Both the position numbers and the translations under genes were made by a program. Under the pieces are notes generated by a model. The model saw only the letters and a list, made by a program, of their open reading frames with translations, was not told the origin of the DNA and ran no database searches. Shown here in pieces: positions 12,280 to 56,146 of a DNA stretch of 64,000 bases; positions within the stretch are counted from its first letter, which is position 1, and each line of letters opens with the position of its first letter. This stretch comes from Candidatus Zixiibacteriota bacterium (GTDB lineage: Bacteria > Zixibacteria > MSB-5A5 > GN15 > FEB-12), in assembly GCA_019038695.1 (NCBI GenBank), contig JAHOYZ010000010.1:62001-126000 (forward strand), read 5' to 3'.

Positions 12280-12720
12280 GTGGCTTATGTCTTACCGATA
12301 TCCTACATGGCTACCGATCTCATTCCAAAGACCTTCCTGCGTAGATTTGTGTTGTATCACCTGCCGGCGTTGCTCTATGCTCTGGGTATAATAGCACTGT
12401 CATCCATTCCGAATTTAGCAACACCGCAGATTCGTATCATTGCCGTTGATAAGGTAGCACATTTTTTGGAATACGCCATTTTTGCGTTTTTGATTTTCAG
12501 ATCAGTATCAAATCTGAGTAGGCGTCCACGCCTGCGGTGGATTGTGCTCTTGTCTGCACTTTTCCTGTGTATTTTTGCACTCCTGGATGAAATCTATCAG
12601 CAATATATCCCCGGACGGCATATGGATGTGCTGGATTTTGTTACAGATGTAGGTGGAGCTTTGATCGTTCTGACCATAATGGGAAGACGGTATCAGCAGG
12701 CTCAAAAGCGCTCTGAATAG
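12280..12720 (+). CDS. VanZ-like membrane protein
   Basis: 146 residues with about four membrane segments. Conserved VanZ-family signatures are visible: DKVAHFLEYAIFAFL (about 62-76), LLDEIYQQYIPGRHMDVLDFVTD (about residues 107-129, of which DEIYQ and PGR are the hallmark) and a final TM. VanZ-like proteins are linked to teicoplanin resistance in enterococci, but most homologues have no known function. The proposed GTG start is directly behind AGAGG, which is too close for an ideal ribosome binding site; ATG at 12307 is an alternative and would remove nine residues. The gene stands alone, divergent from the potassium-channel gene. Confidence 0.75.
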   Translation: MAYVLPISYMATDLIPKTFLRRFVLYHLPALLYALGIIALSSIPNLATPQIRIIAVDKVAHFLEYAIFAFLIFRSVSNLSRRPRLRWIVLLSALFLCIFALLDEIYQQYIPGRHMDVLDFVTDVGGALIVLTIMGRRYQQAQKRSE

Positions 12721-12763: not shown

Positions 12764-12791
12764 TTGACTTCTAAGCCTATGTCTTTATATT
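12764..12791 (+). promoter_or_regulatory. Sigma-70-like promoter of the candidate RNA
   Basis: TTGACT (12764-12769), a 16-bp spacer and TATATT (12786-12791) form the best promoter match in this gap, predicting a start near 12798. The next gene begins 460 bp further on, too far for an ordinary leader. Confidence 0.5.
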
Positions 12792-12797
12792 AATAAC

Positions 12798-13141
12798 GGT
12801 CTGTAAAACTCGCCTTTCCAGGCGGAAAATGGAAGATTCAGAATACCCCTTTTTGTTCCAACATTTGGGTTGAGTATAGATTAATGATCCGTAAGAAATG
12901 TGCTGTCGGGTTTAATTTCCGGGCAACACAATTGCTGAAGTTGGTTTAGAAATATCAAAGGACAGTTACCGTACGCTGGATGGACGAATCTCCGAGCCAG
13001 CTTCCATACCCGTAGCATAGTGTTAAGGGGCTGAAGTTGGCATATTGGGTTTTGTCTGGCATGGAGCTAAGGGCAAGACAAGCTTCTGCGGTATGGGAAA
13101 TGAAACCGGTGGAAAGACAATTCCGCAGGTTGGAATTTTTT
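12798..13141 (+). ncRNA. Candidate structured non-coding RNA, family not recognised
   Basis: The 537-bp gap between the VanZ-like gene and the giant surface-protein gene has no credible protein but has promoter, folded core and terminator in order. Pairings seen: CCAGCTTC (12997-13004) with GAAGTTGG (13033-13040); CCATACC (13004-13010) with GGTATGG (13090-13096); TTGTCT with AGACAA around 13053-13079. GCTGAAGTTGG occurs twice (12934-12944 and 13030-13040), so the CCAGCTTC strand could switch partners. The 3' end has an AATTCC/GGAATT hairpin with T-run. It lacks the signatures I know for tmRNA, RNase P RNA, SRP RNA, cobalamin or c-di-GMP riboswitches. It could also be a long leader of the downstream gene. 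Confidence 0.4.
13119..13141 (+). terminator. Rho-independent terminator of the candidate RNA
   Basis: AATTCC (13119-13124), a 7-nt loop and GGAATT (13132-13137) form a short stem running into a T-tract ending at 13141. The stem is AT-rich, so strength is uncertain. Confidence 0.4.
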
Positions 13142-13257
13142 AGAGGGCAAGTTTTTTGCATTGGCTCTGAAGATGTGATGTAGCCAAGATTATGGTAAAC
13201 AATATGAATAAGATGTATGACTCGAAACTCTAAACAAAACTAATTGGAGAGCAAAAC

Positions 13258-16200
13258 ATGAAATTGAGAATCATCCTGTCGATGTTGGTCATTCTCGCTT
13301 TCGGTGCCGTAGGAGCGCAGGCGGGTGATGATCCGAACTTGCCGGATACTGTTGCCTTTGTGGCTTCGGTCGTTCCGGGGGCTGGCTCGGATCAATTGCA
13401 GATGGATATTTATGGTTTCTCAGATGAAACCCTCATGGGCTTTACTATGGGCATCATCTGGGACAACCCTAAGATCCAGATGGACAGCGCCAAGGCGACA
13501 TCACTAATAACCGACGCTTTTGCGATTGGCCCATTCTTTTACGAAGAAGGTAGTCTTGCCACCACGAATACAAATCAGCGCTTCCAGCTGGGTGGTACAG
13601 CCATGATGTCCTACATCGCGGCCGATGCCGGTGGACGCCGACTTTGGGCCAGCTATTACTTCACGGCCACTGACTGGACAGAAAGTGATTGTGTCACGTT
13701 TGACACTTTGAAATACGGCTCGGGCACAGAATTCATGTTTGTGGACCCGGGTCCTCCGCAGAACCAGTTTGTACCCCGCTTTGAGGGTATTCTGGAAGTG
13801 GGAACCTGTGTTGAAGAGAACCTACCTCCGGTTGTCGATGGTATTCCCGATCAGACCATCACCGAAGGTTCGACCTTTGCCACGATCAGCCTTGATAATT
13901 ATGTGGCCGACCCCGACAACACTGATGATGAGATGACCTGGACCTATTCGGGTAACACTGATCTGACGGTTGTCATCACTGATCGTGTTGCGACTATCAC
14001 GACGCCGGGTGCCGAATGGAGCGGAGCCGAGACGATTACGTTTAAGGCTGCCGATCCTGACGGTTTGTTTGACGACGATGCAGCGATCTTTGAAGTCACC
14101 GCTGTGAACGATGCTCCGGTCGTTACAGACATTCCCGATCAAACAATCGCCGAGGGCGGTAGCTTTGCTACAATTACTCTCGATGATTTCGTCTCTGATG
14201 CGGATAACACCGATGAACAGATGATCTGGACCTTCTCAGGTAACACTGATCTGACAGTTGTTATTACTGATCGTGTCGCAACTATCACGACACCGGGTAC
14301 TGAATGGAGTGGAGCTGAGACGATTACGTTTAAGGCTGCCGATCCAGACGGTTTGTTTGACGACGATGCAGCGATCTTTGAAGTCACCGCTGTGAACGAT
14401 GCTCCGGTCGTTACAGACATTCCCGATCAGACCATCGATGAGGGTGGTAGCTTTGAAACAATTACTCTCGATGATTTCGTCTCTGACATAGATAATACCG
14501 ATGAGCAGATGACCTGGACCTTCTCAGGTAACACTGATCTGACAGTTGTCATTACTGATCGTGTTGCGACTATCAGCACGCCAGCCAGTGACTGGAGCGG
14601 AGCCGAGACAATTACGTTTAAGGCTGCCGATCCTGACGGTTTGTTTGACGAAAATGCGGCGATCTTTACCGTCACACCCGCAGATGAGAATCCCCCGGTC
14701 ATCACTGATATTCCTGATCAGACCATCGCTGAGGGCGGTAGCTTTGCTACAATTACTCTCGATGATTTCGTCTCTGATGCGGATAACACCGATGAACAGA
14801 TGATCTGGACCTTCTCAGGTAACACTGATCTGACGGTTGTCATCACTGATCGTGTTGCGACTATCACGACACCGGGTGCCGAATGGAATGGAGCCGAGAC
14901 TATTACGTTTAAGGCTGCCGATCCAGACGGTTTGTTTGACGAAAATGCGGCGATCTTTGAAGTTACCGCTGTGAACGACGCTCCGGTAGTTACGGACATT
15001 GAAGATCAGACTATCGCCGAGGGTGGTAGTTTCGCGACTATTACTCTTGATGATTTTGTGTCTGACGTAGATAATACTGATGAGCAGATGACCTGGACCT
15101 ATTCGGGTAACACTGATCTGACAGTTGACATCACCGACCGTGTCGCGACTATCACGACACCGGATGCCGAATGGAGTGGAGCCGAGACTATTACATTTAA
15201 GGCTGCCGATCCGGACGGTTTGTTTGACGAAAATGCGGCGATCTTTGAAGTCACCGCTGTTAATGACGCTCCGGTAATAGCTGATATTCCCGATCAGACC
15301 ATCGCCGAGGGTGGTAGCTTTGCTACAATTACTCTCGATGATTTCGTCTCTGATGCGGATAACACCGATGAGCAGATGACCTGGACCTATTCAGGCAACA
15401 CTGATTTGACAGTTGTTATTACTGATCGCGTTGCGACTATCACCACACCAGCCAGCGACTGGAACGGAGCCGAGACTATTACGTTTAAGGCCGCCGATCC
15501 TGACGGTTTGTTTGACGAAAATGCGGCGATCTTTACCGTCTCTTCCGTCAACATTGCACCAGTATTGGCTGAGATTGGTGCGCAGAGCGGACCAGAAAAC
15601 GCCGAGCTTAGCTTTGGTATTAGTGCCACTGATCCTGACGGAACTACTCCGACGCTGGACACAGCGGATGTACCTGCCGGTGCATCGTTTGTGGACAACG
15701 GTGGTGGTACTGGTACTTTCACGTGGACGCCGACCTACGATGATGCTGATGTTTACTACGTGACCTTCATCGCCTTTGACGGTGAGCTGGCCGACTCCGA
15801 AGTAGTTGAGATTACTGTTATCAATACAAACCGTCTACCAGTCGTAGATGCGGTATCTGACACTACTATTGACGAATGTGGCGAGCTTGTATTGACTTTT
15901 GTAGCTACCGATCCTGATGGTGATGATCTCACCTTCGTTGTTGATCCTCTGGCAGCCAATATGACATTTGATGATGCTACCAATACGTTCACATTTGATC
16001 CCGACACCACCCAGGCTGGAGTCTACAATCTGGTTCTGACAGTTAGCGATGGCATGGACCCCGTTGAGGAACCATTCGTTATTACCGTCGAAGACTGTAT
16101 CATACTCTCAGAAGATACTTTTGTGTTTGAAACTGAGCCAGGTTCGAGTACCGGTAGTGCCACCCTTCAGGTGGAATCTTCCGGCGACCCCTTCTGTTTC

Positions 16201-18591
16201 ACAGTAGTCGAAGATCCAGATGTGGAGTGGCTCGAGTTTTCCCCAGAGGGTGTTATTTGTGTACCTCCTTTGGCAGAAATCGTTATCTCCTATGACGTAA
16301 CTGATATGCCTTCTGGAACATATGTAGCCAACTGCTCAATCGTTCCGGTTGACCCCGCAAAGGGTGCTGCTTTCGAACCGGTAGCGTTCACCGTTACTGT
16401 TATTGTTCCTACAGCAGACTTTATCACAATTGCCGGTGTTGGGGGAGTCCCCGGCAGTGAAGTAGTTGTACCAGTAACCTTCACAAACAACTCCTGTGAC
16501 TTGGCAGGGATCTATGCGAATCTGGCGTGGACCTCTGAATACTTGTCCCTGGTTATGGTCACCTGGGAAGACTCTCGTGTAGAGCACTTCTCAATGAAAG
16601 AAGCTGCGATCAACCCGATTGCACAGACCGTGTTGTTAGCTGCTGGCGATGAATCTGAACTGATCGGTACGGGAACCGGCAATTTTGTCAATCTGCACTT
16701 CAAATTGGCATCAGATATTCCAGCTGGTACTTATAACATTGGCTTCTTGCCAAAATCTGCCTTCCTTCTGGATTGTGGTGATGGATTCATTGATGGTTGG
16801 CCGGAAGAAACTGCGGGCCATATCGTTGTTGGCGACAATCCCAACTTTGTGTGTGGATATGTTACCGATACCCTCGGTATCCCGATTCCAGGTGCAACTG
16901 TTGATCTCTATGGTGAGTTCCCGATCGGCCCAGTCGATATGACCACCATGTCCAGTGAAACCGGAGCATTTTCCTTCTCGGATATTATGCCCATTCCGTT
17001 TGATCTGTGGGCTTACCATGAAGGTTATTATCCGACTCTGGTTGAGAATGTGAACTATGGTGATATCGGTATAATGATTGAGCTTACTCCGGTCGAGCCC
17101 ATTATCGAACATCACGAGTTTGTCTTCTTCTACTGTGGTGAGAATCTCTACTTCGACGAATTACTTCCAGTAGGATCAGTTATTGGTGCCTATGATTCAA
17201 ATAACGTCCTTTGCGGTACCTGGTTCGTCAGTGAGCTTGGCGCTTACGGCGCCATGCCGGTTTACGGCGATTTGACAGATACCGAAGAAGACGAAGGAGC
17301 CGATCCCGGAGAAATAATTCGTTTCTTCATCAACAACGAATATTGGGCTCAAACTGATGTTGAAGCTATCTGGCAAGATCCCCTTGAAAGCTGGCAGGTC
17401 TGCCTGTCGGTTGGTGAAATAACCAAGACCTGTGACTTGTTAGAAGGCTGGAATCTCGTAAGCTGGTCGGTTGACCATGAAGATGACTACATCCTCGATG
17501 CACTGTCATCGCTTGGTGACACTCTTCTAATAGTAGTCGGATTCGAACAGGGTGGTCTCATCTACGATGCGGCTCTGCCTCAGTTCTCGACACTTTGGTA
17601 TGTCGATCATCTCAGCGGCTACTGGATTAAGGTTTCCGAGAATGTTACGCTTGAAATGACAGGCGTCACCGTGTCACCAGCTACTCCTATTGAGGTGACG
17701 GCCGGTTGGAACCTTGTCTCGTACTTGCCGGATTATGCAATGCCGGTAGAGATAGCAGTTTCTTCGTTAGACGGCAACCTGATTGTCCTTTTTGGTCAAG
17801 ATGGTGCGTATATTCCTGGTGACCTTGGGAATATGGCCGAGCTGGCTCCCTGCAACGGTTACTGGGTGAAGGTTGCCTTTGATGATGAGTTGATTTACGA
17901 GGCAAGTGGTCCTATGACTGCTCCGCAGCAGCGTCGCGAACTGGGTACGCTGGCAACAGCAGCAGCGATATCTGATGTGGTTGCATCCAACCGCTGGATG
18001 AACGCTTATGCTTCGAATCTGACTCTTGACGGTCAGACTGTTCTGAGTGGTGCCATAATTACGGCCCACGCTCAGGATGGCCATATGGTCGGTAGCTTCA
18101 CAATGGAAGAGGATGGTTTGTTTGGCTTCATGCCAGTCTACGGTGACATTAGCTCGACTGAAGAGGTCGAAGGTATTCGCAACGGCGAAACTTTCTACCT
18201 GGCCATCGACGGTGTTGAGACGGCTGAAGCCTTTGCTTTCAGTAGTGGTATTGGCGATCGTGTAGAGATCACCAATCTGTCCACTGGTAAGTCTACGGAT
18301 AACAACCTGCCGACGGTTTATGGTCTCTCGCAGAACTATCCGAACCCGTTCAACCCGACCACTAATATCGCCTTTACTCTGCCGAATAGCGGTACAGCCC
18401 GTATCGAGGTCTTCAATATCCTCGGTGAGTTGGTTGCTACGCCGTTTGACGGAATGGCGACGGCTGGTGAGAACAGAATCGAATGGGACGGTCAGAATTC
18501 CAGAGGAAAAACTGTCTCATCGGGTATTTACTTCTACCGTCTAACTGCCGATAACTACAGCGAGACGAAGAAAATGACCCTCCTGAAATAG
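13258..18591 (+). CDS. Giant T9SS-secreted surface protein with six cadherin-like repeats
   Basis: 1777 residues; ATG behind TTGGAGAGC. Order: signal peptide (1-22); a cohesin-like beta domain (about 25-180); six 96-97-residue repeats (191-767), each from PVVTDIPDQTIAEG to AAIFEVTAVNDA, like the cadherin-like/Ig-like repeats of bacterial adhesins with Asp-rich, probably calcium-binding loops; Ig-like domains with IDATDPDG-type motifs (ATDPDGTTP, ATDPDGDDL); a second cohesin-like domain (about 1055-1190); a carboxypeptidase-regulatory-like fold (about 1200-1285); two copies of a domain ending in MPVYGD (about 1333 and 1625) flanking two GWNLVS modules (about 1397 and 1482); and a T9SS type A tail (about 1688-1777: YPNPFNPTT, SGIYFYRL, KMTLLK). 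Likely a cell-surface or matrix adhesin; ligand unknown. The next gene shares the MPVYGD domain and the same tail. Confidence 0.9.
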   Translation: MKLRIILSMLVILAFGAVGAQAGDDPNLPDTVAFVASVVPGAGSDQLQMDIYGFSDETLMGFTMGIIWDNPKIQMDSAKATSLITDAFAIGPFFYEEGSLATTNTNQRFQLGGTAMMSYIAADAGGRRLWASYYFTATDWTESDCVTFDTLKYGSGTEFMFVDPGPPQNQFVPRFEGILEVGTCVEENLPPVVDGIPDQTITEGSTFATISLDNYVADPDNTDDEMTWTYSGNTDLTVVITDRVATITTPGAEWSGAETITFKAADPDGLFDDDAAIFEVTAVNDAPVVTDIPDQTIAEGGSFATITLDDFVSDADNTDEQMIWTFSGNTDLTVVITDRVATITTPGTEWSGAETITFKAADPDGLFDDDAAIFEVTAVNDAPVVTDIPDQTIDEGGSFETITLDDFVSDIDNTDEQMTWTFSGNTDLTVVITDRVATISTPASDWSGAETITFKAADPDGLFDENAAIFTVTPADENPPVITDIPDQTIAEGGSFATITLDDFVSDADNTDEQMIWTFSGNTDLTVVITDRVATITTPGAEWNGAETITFKAADPDGLFDENAAIFEVTAVNDAPVVTDIEDQTIAEGGSFATITLDDFVSDVDNTDEQMTWTYSGNTDLTVDITDRVATITTPDAEWSGAETITFKAADPDGLFDENAAIFEVTAVNDAPVIADIPDQTIAEGGSFATITLDDFVSDADNTDEQMTWTYSGNTDLTVVITDRVATITTPASDWNGAETITFKAADPDGLFDENAAIFTVSSVNIAPVLAEIGAQSGPENAELSFGISATDPDGTTPTLDTADVPAGASFVDNGGGTGTFTWTPTYDDADVYYVTFIAFDGELADSEVVEITVINTNRLPVVDAVSDTTIDECGELVLTFVATDPDGDDLTFVVDPLAANMTFDDATNTFTFDPDTTQAGVYNLVLTVSDGMDPVEEPFVITVEDCIILSEDTFVFETEPGSSTGSATLQVESSGDPFCFTVVEDPDVEWLEFSPEGVICVPPLAEIVISYDVTDMPSGTYVANCSIVPVDPAKGAAFEPVAFTVTVIVPTADFITIAGVGGVPGSEVVVPVTFTNNSCDLAGIYANLAWTSEYLSLVMVTWEDSRVEHFSMKEAAINPIAQTVLLAAGDESELIGTGTGNFVNLHFKLASDIPAGTYNIGFLPKSAFLLDCGDGFIDGWPEETAGHIVVGDNPNFVCGYVTDTLGIPIPGATVDLYGEFPIGPVDMTTMSSETGAFSFSDIMPIPFDLWAYHEGYYPTLVENVNYGDIGIMIELTPVEPIIEHHEFVFFYCGENLYFDELLPVGSVIGAYDSNNVLCGTWFVSELGAYGAMPVYGDLTDTEEDEGADPGEIIRFFINNEYWAQTDVEAIWQDPLESWQVCLSVGEITKTCDLLEGWNLVSWSVDHEDDYILDALSSLGDTLLIVVGFEQGGLIYDAALPQFSTLWYVDHLSGYWIKVSENVTLEMTGVTVSPATPIEVTAGWNLVSYLPDYAMPVEIAVSSLDGNLIVLFGQDGAYIPGDLGNMAELAPCNGYWVKVAFDDELIYEASGPMTAPQQRRELGTLATAAAISDVVASNRWMNAYASNLTLDGQTVLSGAIITAHAQDGHMVGSFTMEEDGLFGFMPVYGDISSTEEVEGIRNGETFYLAIDGVETAEAFAFSSGIGDRVEITNLSTGKSTDNNLPTVYGLSQNYPNPFNPTTNIAFTLPNSGTARIEVFNILGELVATPFDGMATAGENRIEWDGQNSRGKTVSSGIYFYRLTADNYSETKKMTLLK
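13828..15558 (+). repeat. Six tandem 288/291-bp coding repeats
   Basis: Units start at 13828, 14116, 14404, 14695, 14983 and 15271; five are 288 bp and the third is 291 bp. They encode the cadherin-like repeats and stay very similar at DNA level, including long identical blocks such as GATCGTGTTGCGACTATCA. Units 2 and 4 are the most alike. Similarity at synonymous sites suggests recent duplication or ongoing gene conversion. Confidence 0.95.
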
Positions 18592-55937: not shown

Positions 55938-55954
55938 TGGGATGCGGTCAACAT

Positions 55955-56037
55955 CGCCGTTTCCCTACGCCGGTATTACCCGGATCAGGTCGAGGGGGTA
56001 TGTTCTCAGGCCGTGGCTTTGGGCCACCCCCAACGGA
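55955..56037 (-). promoter_or_regulatory. TPP riboswitch (THI element)
   Basis: On the minus strand the thi-box parts come in order: GGGGTGGCCC, then GCCTGAGA (complement 56003-56010), ACCCCCTCGACCTGATC, GGGTAATACC and GGCGTAGGGAAACGG. P1 closes as CCGTT/AACGG. These are the conserved segments of the thiamine pyrophosphate aptamer. It starts about 175 bases before the TonB receptor start codon. Confidence 0.95.
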
Positions 56038-56146
56038 ACGTCTATTTCAGGTGGGAATATCGCGAAAGATATGAAGGAAGGCAAGGGGTTTTGTGGATCA
56101 CAGTTCAACACGGAGCGAAAGAGCAATCGGTCATTGGACTCGCAGA

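Follow-up and report, generated by a model that had tools for sequence, protein, structure and literature searches.

A candidate lineage-restricted 5' leader element of giant exported protein genes in Candidatus Zixiibacteriota

Downstream of a VanZ-like gene in a Candidatus Zixiibacteriota genome, we identified what is probably a new lineage-restricted cis element in the 5' untranslated region of the mRNA for a giant exported protein; promoter and element together extend from position 12764 to about 12880 of the window (the whole stretch of 64,000 nucleotides that was analysed). Comparison among relatives shows a conserved promoter, a conserved motif at a near-fixed distance from it, linkage to the giant gene, and a leader that is otherwise variable; action as RNA rather than DNA, and the step affected (stability or elongation), are inferred. 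A first-pass annotation of the same DNA had proposed a stand-alone structured RNA spanning 12764-13141, with its own promoter, a terminator and a switch-like choice between alternative pairings. Judged from the comparison, the constrained part is instead about 12764-12880, or roughly the first 115 nt counted from the -35 box, and the boundaries are corrected accordingly. Features of the locus are collected in Table 1.

Table 1. Features of the vanZ-giant gene locus, in window coordinates
Feature	Position	Strand	Remarks
VanZ-like gene, conserved upstream neighbour	12280-12720	+	Pfam PF04892, E 1.5e-11
Sigma70-type promoter, TTGACT-16-TATATT	12764-12791	+	in 28 relatives, same site lies 17-64 nt past the stop codon of vanZ
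Inferred untranslated 5' leader, giant protein mRNA	12798-13257	+	start site inferred from promoter; relatives' leaders about 250-430 nt, ending at SD and ATG
Small hairpin, CGCCT-TTCC-AGGCG	12811-12824	+	fold; corresponds to the variable hairpin in the core of the leader
Conserved motif, divergent copy TTTTTGTTCCAACATTTGGGTTG (consensus TTTTTGGTCTAACAnnnCTGGnTTG)	12850-12872	+	score matrix and profile
Two copies of GCTGAAGTTGG, with CCAGCTTC (12997-13004) between them	12934-13040	+	copies at 12934-12944 and 13030-13040; region unconserved in relatives
Weak AATTCC/GGAATT hairpin with T-run, claimed terminator	13119-13141	+	-4.6 kcal/mol; not conserved
Giant exported protein, gene served by the leader	13258-18591	+	1777 aa; Ig/cadherin-like repeats, type IX secretion tail

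A direct DNA similarity search with the gap between the two genes recovered no homologue in 60 related genomes, and the leaders of relatives were found through synteny, after protein searches. These searches showed the gene order, vanZ and then a giant exported protein, to be kept in the family and beyond it, across the taxonomic order, and the arrangement of vanZ, promoter, long leader and giant, often T9SS-tailed, exported protein is conserved in Candidatus Zixiibacteriota. In the window, the protein encoded downstream carries a Por_Secre_tail together with its Ig/cadherin-like repeats, bearing out the earlier placement of the stretch upstream of a giant T9SS gene. Three small ORFs lie in the gap between vanZ and the giant gene, none of them with a Pfam match that would indicate a missed gene. 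Four loci of a neighbouring family (L078, L079, L080 and L081) also possess the vanZ-giant gene arrangement, with a short leader lacking GGTCTAAC, and two genera of that family have a conserved stretch of their own in the leader, ATGTCTTAA..AAATACATGCAGGGATGC.

With the gaps set side by side, the promoter was found at a similar distance after vanZ, followed some 65 nt further on by TTTTTGGTCTAACAnnnCTGG; in the core of the leader, GGTCTAACAnnnCTGG comes after a variable hairpin and a T-rich linker. The window promoter matches the consensus at 10 of 12 positions and is the sole promoter-like site found in 12.6-13.4 kb, where shuffled sequence yields 1.3 such sites by chance; we take it as real because the same position is conserved in relatives, and in this respect the earlier annotation was right. 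The pattern TTGAC-N16-19-TATATT-N55-84-GGTCTRAC occurs in 31 of the 54 genomes of the family (reversed control, 0), with at least one extra, chance-like match that lacks the leader's gene after it (in G023) and another among the three matches of G020. A sequence profile built from 34 copies, the window copy among them, detects the leader in about 42 of the 54 genomes at E<0.001, mostly as one copy per genome. Profile matches outside the training set occupy the same place behind vanZ in G024 (E 9.7e-16), G031 and G003, the first carrying CGGTCTAGCATAACTGGCTTG and the other two GGTCTTTCG. The motif is absent from a few family genomes in which the giant gene is present (G013, G035 and G017), and no strong profile match was found outside the family across 132 genomes of the phylum. 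Genomes that match and have this locus belong to Candidatus Zixiibacteriota; the scattered pattern matches in other phyla, which we take to be chance, have no giant exported protein downstream in an ORF scan.

Conservation is concentrated at the 5' end of the leader. Linker and motif are 75-88% identical within genera, as against 21-48% for the remainder of the untranslated region. Among divergent copies, L224 (G032), L226 (G031) and L228 (G003) keep TTGGTCT while the rest of the motif has changed (GGTCTTAC, GGTCTTTCG), and these variants suggest that GGTCT may form its innermost core. In the window itself, GTTCCAACATTTGGG at 12855-12869 ranks second of 127,942 positions, exactly at the expected place, when scored with a matrix from which the window sequence was left out. 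A divergent member of the class is therefore present here; the profile finds it at E 3.5e-6 in its own genome, the window being part of the training set. In this copy, two motif bases that rank among the most conserved are changed (GTTCC for GGTCT), and this, together with a hairpin segment that folds no better than shuffled sequence (z +0.31), means that the window copy may be weakened.

In canonical copies with visible downstream DNA, and in the second copies, the element is always placed ahead of a member of one gene family and oriented like it. Wherever a canonical copy has enough DNA downstream to tell, a large exported protein follows about 180-370 nt past the core. In one genus, second copies reside behind unrelated genes and are still upstream of a paralogous giant exported protein (L140, L141 and L145); a 45-nt stretch around the motif was observed to be nearly identical among these copies. 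Conversely, the element is missing from G030, in which a PP2C gene directly follows vanZ. From this distribution, the leader follows the downstream gene and not the vanZ locus, so that the link to the giant T9SS gene proposed in the first-pass annotation holds. On these grounds we describe it not as a separate RNA but as an untranslated leader constrained at its 5' end, and its co-transcription with the giant gene is predicted.

Support for structure in this leader is modest. The segment from start site to motif, which contains the hairpin, folds on average better than shuffled sequence in the 34 leaders (mean z -1.01 with t -5.3, compared with -0.14 and -0.35 in controls), and in the window the originally proposed segment as a whole has only a slight folding advantage over shuffled sequence (z -1.06 to -1.29). 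The covariance test called for earlier gave a divided result. RNAalifold returned zero pairs and no consensus structure from the 34-sequence family alignment, either because evolution of the hairpin is too rapid for alignment or because the hairpin is unconstrained; a large structured RNA is thus not supported, and what support there is concerns a small hairpin. At closer range, a subgroup alignment contains a two-part hairpin with compensatory changes in 2 of 8 pairs, and three sequences of one genus have compensatory changes in 5 of 8 hairpin pairs (reached in 3 of 500 shuffles), the structure having been picked on the same sequences in which the changes were counted.

Based on these features, transcription would start near 12798 and continue into the giant gene at 13258. 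The first 90 nt or so of the RNA would present a small hairpin, a U-rich linker and a mostly unpaired motif (GGUCUAACAnnnCUGG; GUUCCAACAUUUGGG in the window). This 5' end most likely constitutes an RNA element with long-range action on a very long mRNA, whether by receiving a protein or an elongating complex or by stabilising the 5' end, and a surface-protein transcript of 4-5 kb might thereby be kept intact and expressed. Direct control of ribosome access is unlikely because the element is far, and at a varying distance, from the start codon. RfaH/LoaP-type loading is argued against because no second NusG-family protein was found, none of the 61 genomes having more than one NusG match. This leaves an element at the 5' end that would protect the long mRNA or aid elongation through a general or some other factor.

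One form of this leader, in which hairpin, U-rich linker and motif load a processivity complex that promotes elongation by antitermination, is possible, and we hold it only tentatively. By analogy, its layout of promoter, hairpin, U-run and conserved box is the same as in the rrn leaders of the same family; it is also 5'-proximal in the leader of a gene of great length, at a variable distance from the start codon. Against it, the single NusG per genome leaves no factor of the RfaH/LoaP type, no Rfam family of any kind matches, and the rrn leaders use a classical TTCTTTGA boxA, to which the motif bears no significant resemblance (p 0.13 ungapped, 0.99 gapped). In the Zixibacteria rRNA leaders inspected upstream of 16S (L194-L209), a hairpin and classical boxA (GTTCTTTGACAACT) were observed about 170-200 nt before the 16S gene. 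When the motif was compared with 12 16S genes for possible pairing with the rRNA, no complementary stretch of at least 7 nt turned up. It would be a bolder conjecture, and one to which we assign little weight, that the hairpin and GGUCUAACAnnnCUGG represent a new RNA class acting on RNA polymerase or on mRNA fate, alone or with a general factor, as a boxA- and RfaH-independent elongation element for giant surface-protein genes in Zixibacteria.

Conservation resides mainly in linear sequence, with no covariation across the family, as would be expected if a transcription factor recognised an operator or pause site in the DNA beyond the promoter. We regard such a site as unlikely, given that the distance between promoter and motif shows no helical phasing (Rayleigh p 0.79), that the motif is non-palindromic and of fixed strand, and that the intervening hairpin has some structural support. 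The lack of phasing, together with a motif that is always downstream of the promoter in the transcribed sense, favours action of the element as RNA rather than DNA, short of proof.

A conserved leader ahead of one gene family might also function as an attenuator, a riboswitch or a leader peptide controlling the giant gene, which we consider improbable: neither a conserved terminator nor a fixed distance to the start codon was found, no Rfam riboswitch matches at the leader, and no upstream ORF is conserved in any of the three frames. More generally, Rfam searches of the window gap and of the loci of 20 relatives gave nothing above the gathering threshold, in agreement with the earlier statement that no known RNA class is present; the leader is new to Rfam, lineage-specific leaders being themselves a known kind. 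Elsewhere in the window, a TPP riboswitch (RF00059, 71.7 bits) was detected at 55945-56041 on the reverse strand. 6S RNA was also considered and set aside, there being no RF00013 match in 13 Zixibacteria genomes; the 6S RNA of the group is either missing or unrecognised by Rfam.

Improbable, too, is the stand-alone regulatory RNA, running from the promoter at 12764 to 13141 and switching between alternative pairings. It can draw on its own promoter, on the weak hairpin with T-run, and on the 11-nt direct repeat with its complementary segment. The repeat is indeed there, at 12934 and 13030, and is unusual without being extreme, as 44 of 2000 shuffles and 20 of 337 window tiles of the same size have one. 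Comparison of the same gap in relatives, as the first-pass annotation had advised, showed that promoter and motif are conserved while the 12.9-13.14 kb part, containing the repeat, the CCAGCTTC switch and the terminator, is not. A switch built on GCTGAAGTTGG/CCAGCTTC pairing is not upheld, since that part diverges freely among relatives; nor is a terminator at 13141, the hairpin being weak, rejected by a terminator scan, and devoid of a counterpart at a fixed place in the relatives' leaders that were scanned. Since no terminator is conserved and the giant gene has no promoter in the scanned region other than that at 12764, a distinct transcript that stops at 13141 is likewise disfavoured, and the element travels with the downstream gene.

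Read as a 5' leader of the giant gene, the element provides, for a phylum without cultured members, a conserved and well-delimited cis-regulatory leader not represented in Rfam, with a sharp consensus and natural variants and tied to the giant exported protein of the family. Were control of elongation or stability to prove true, it would show how very long surface-protein genes can be expressed without RfaH-type factors. A literature search on Zixibacteria noncoding RNA returned only general papers, none of them mentioning Zixibacteria, and one on S-layer leaders found nothing.

Three known systems invite comparison. Abundant surface-protein mRNAs of the ompA and S-layer slpA type have long stabilising 5' leaders, and share with the Zixibacteria leader a strong promoter, a long untranslated leader, a hairpin close to the 5' end and a large cell-surface protein gene; here, in contrast, the main constrained part is the GGUCUAACAnnnCUGG motif, and a stabilising role is suggested by analogy. 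The ops/RfaH and LoaP leaders likewise have one short conserved site, here about 65 nt into the leader, ahead of a long gene whose product is destined for the surface, yet none of the 61 genomes possesses a second NusG-family protein, and the motif is one that we take to be unlike the ops sequence. Finally, the hairpin-boxA leaders of rrn operons follow the same order of promoter, hairpin, U-rich segment and conserved single-stranded box, differing in that the present motif is without the TTCTTTGA core used in the rrn leaders of the same genomes.
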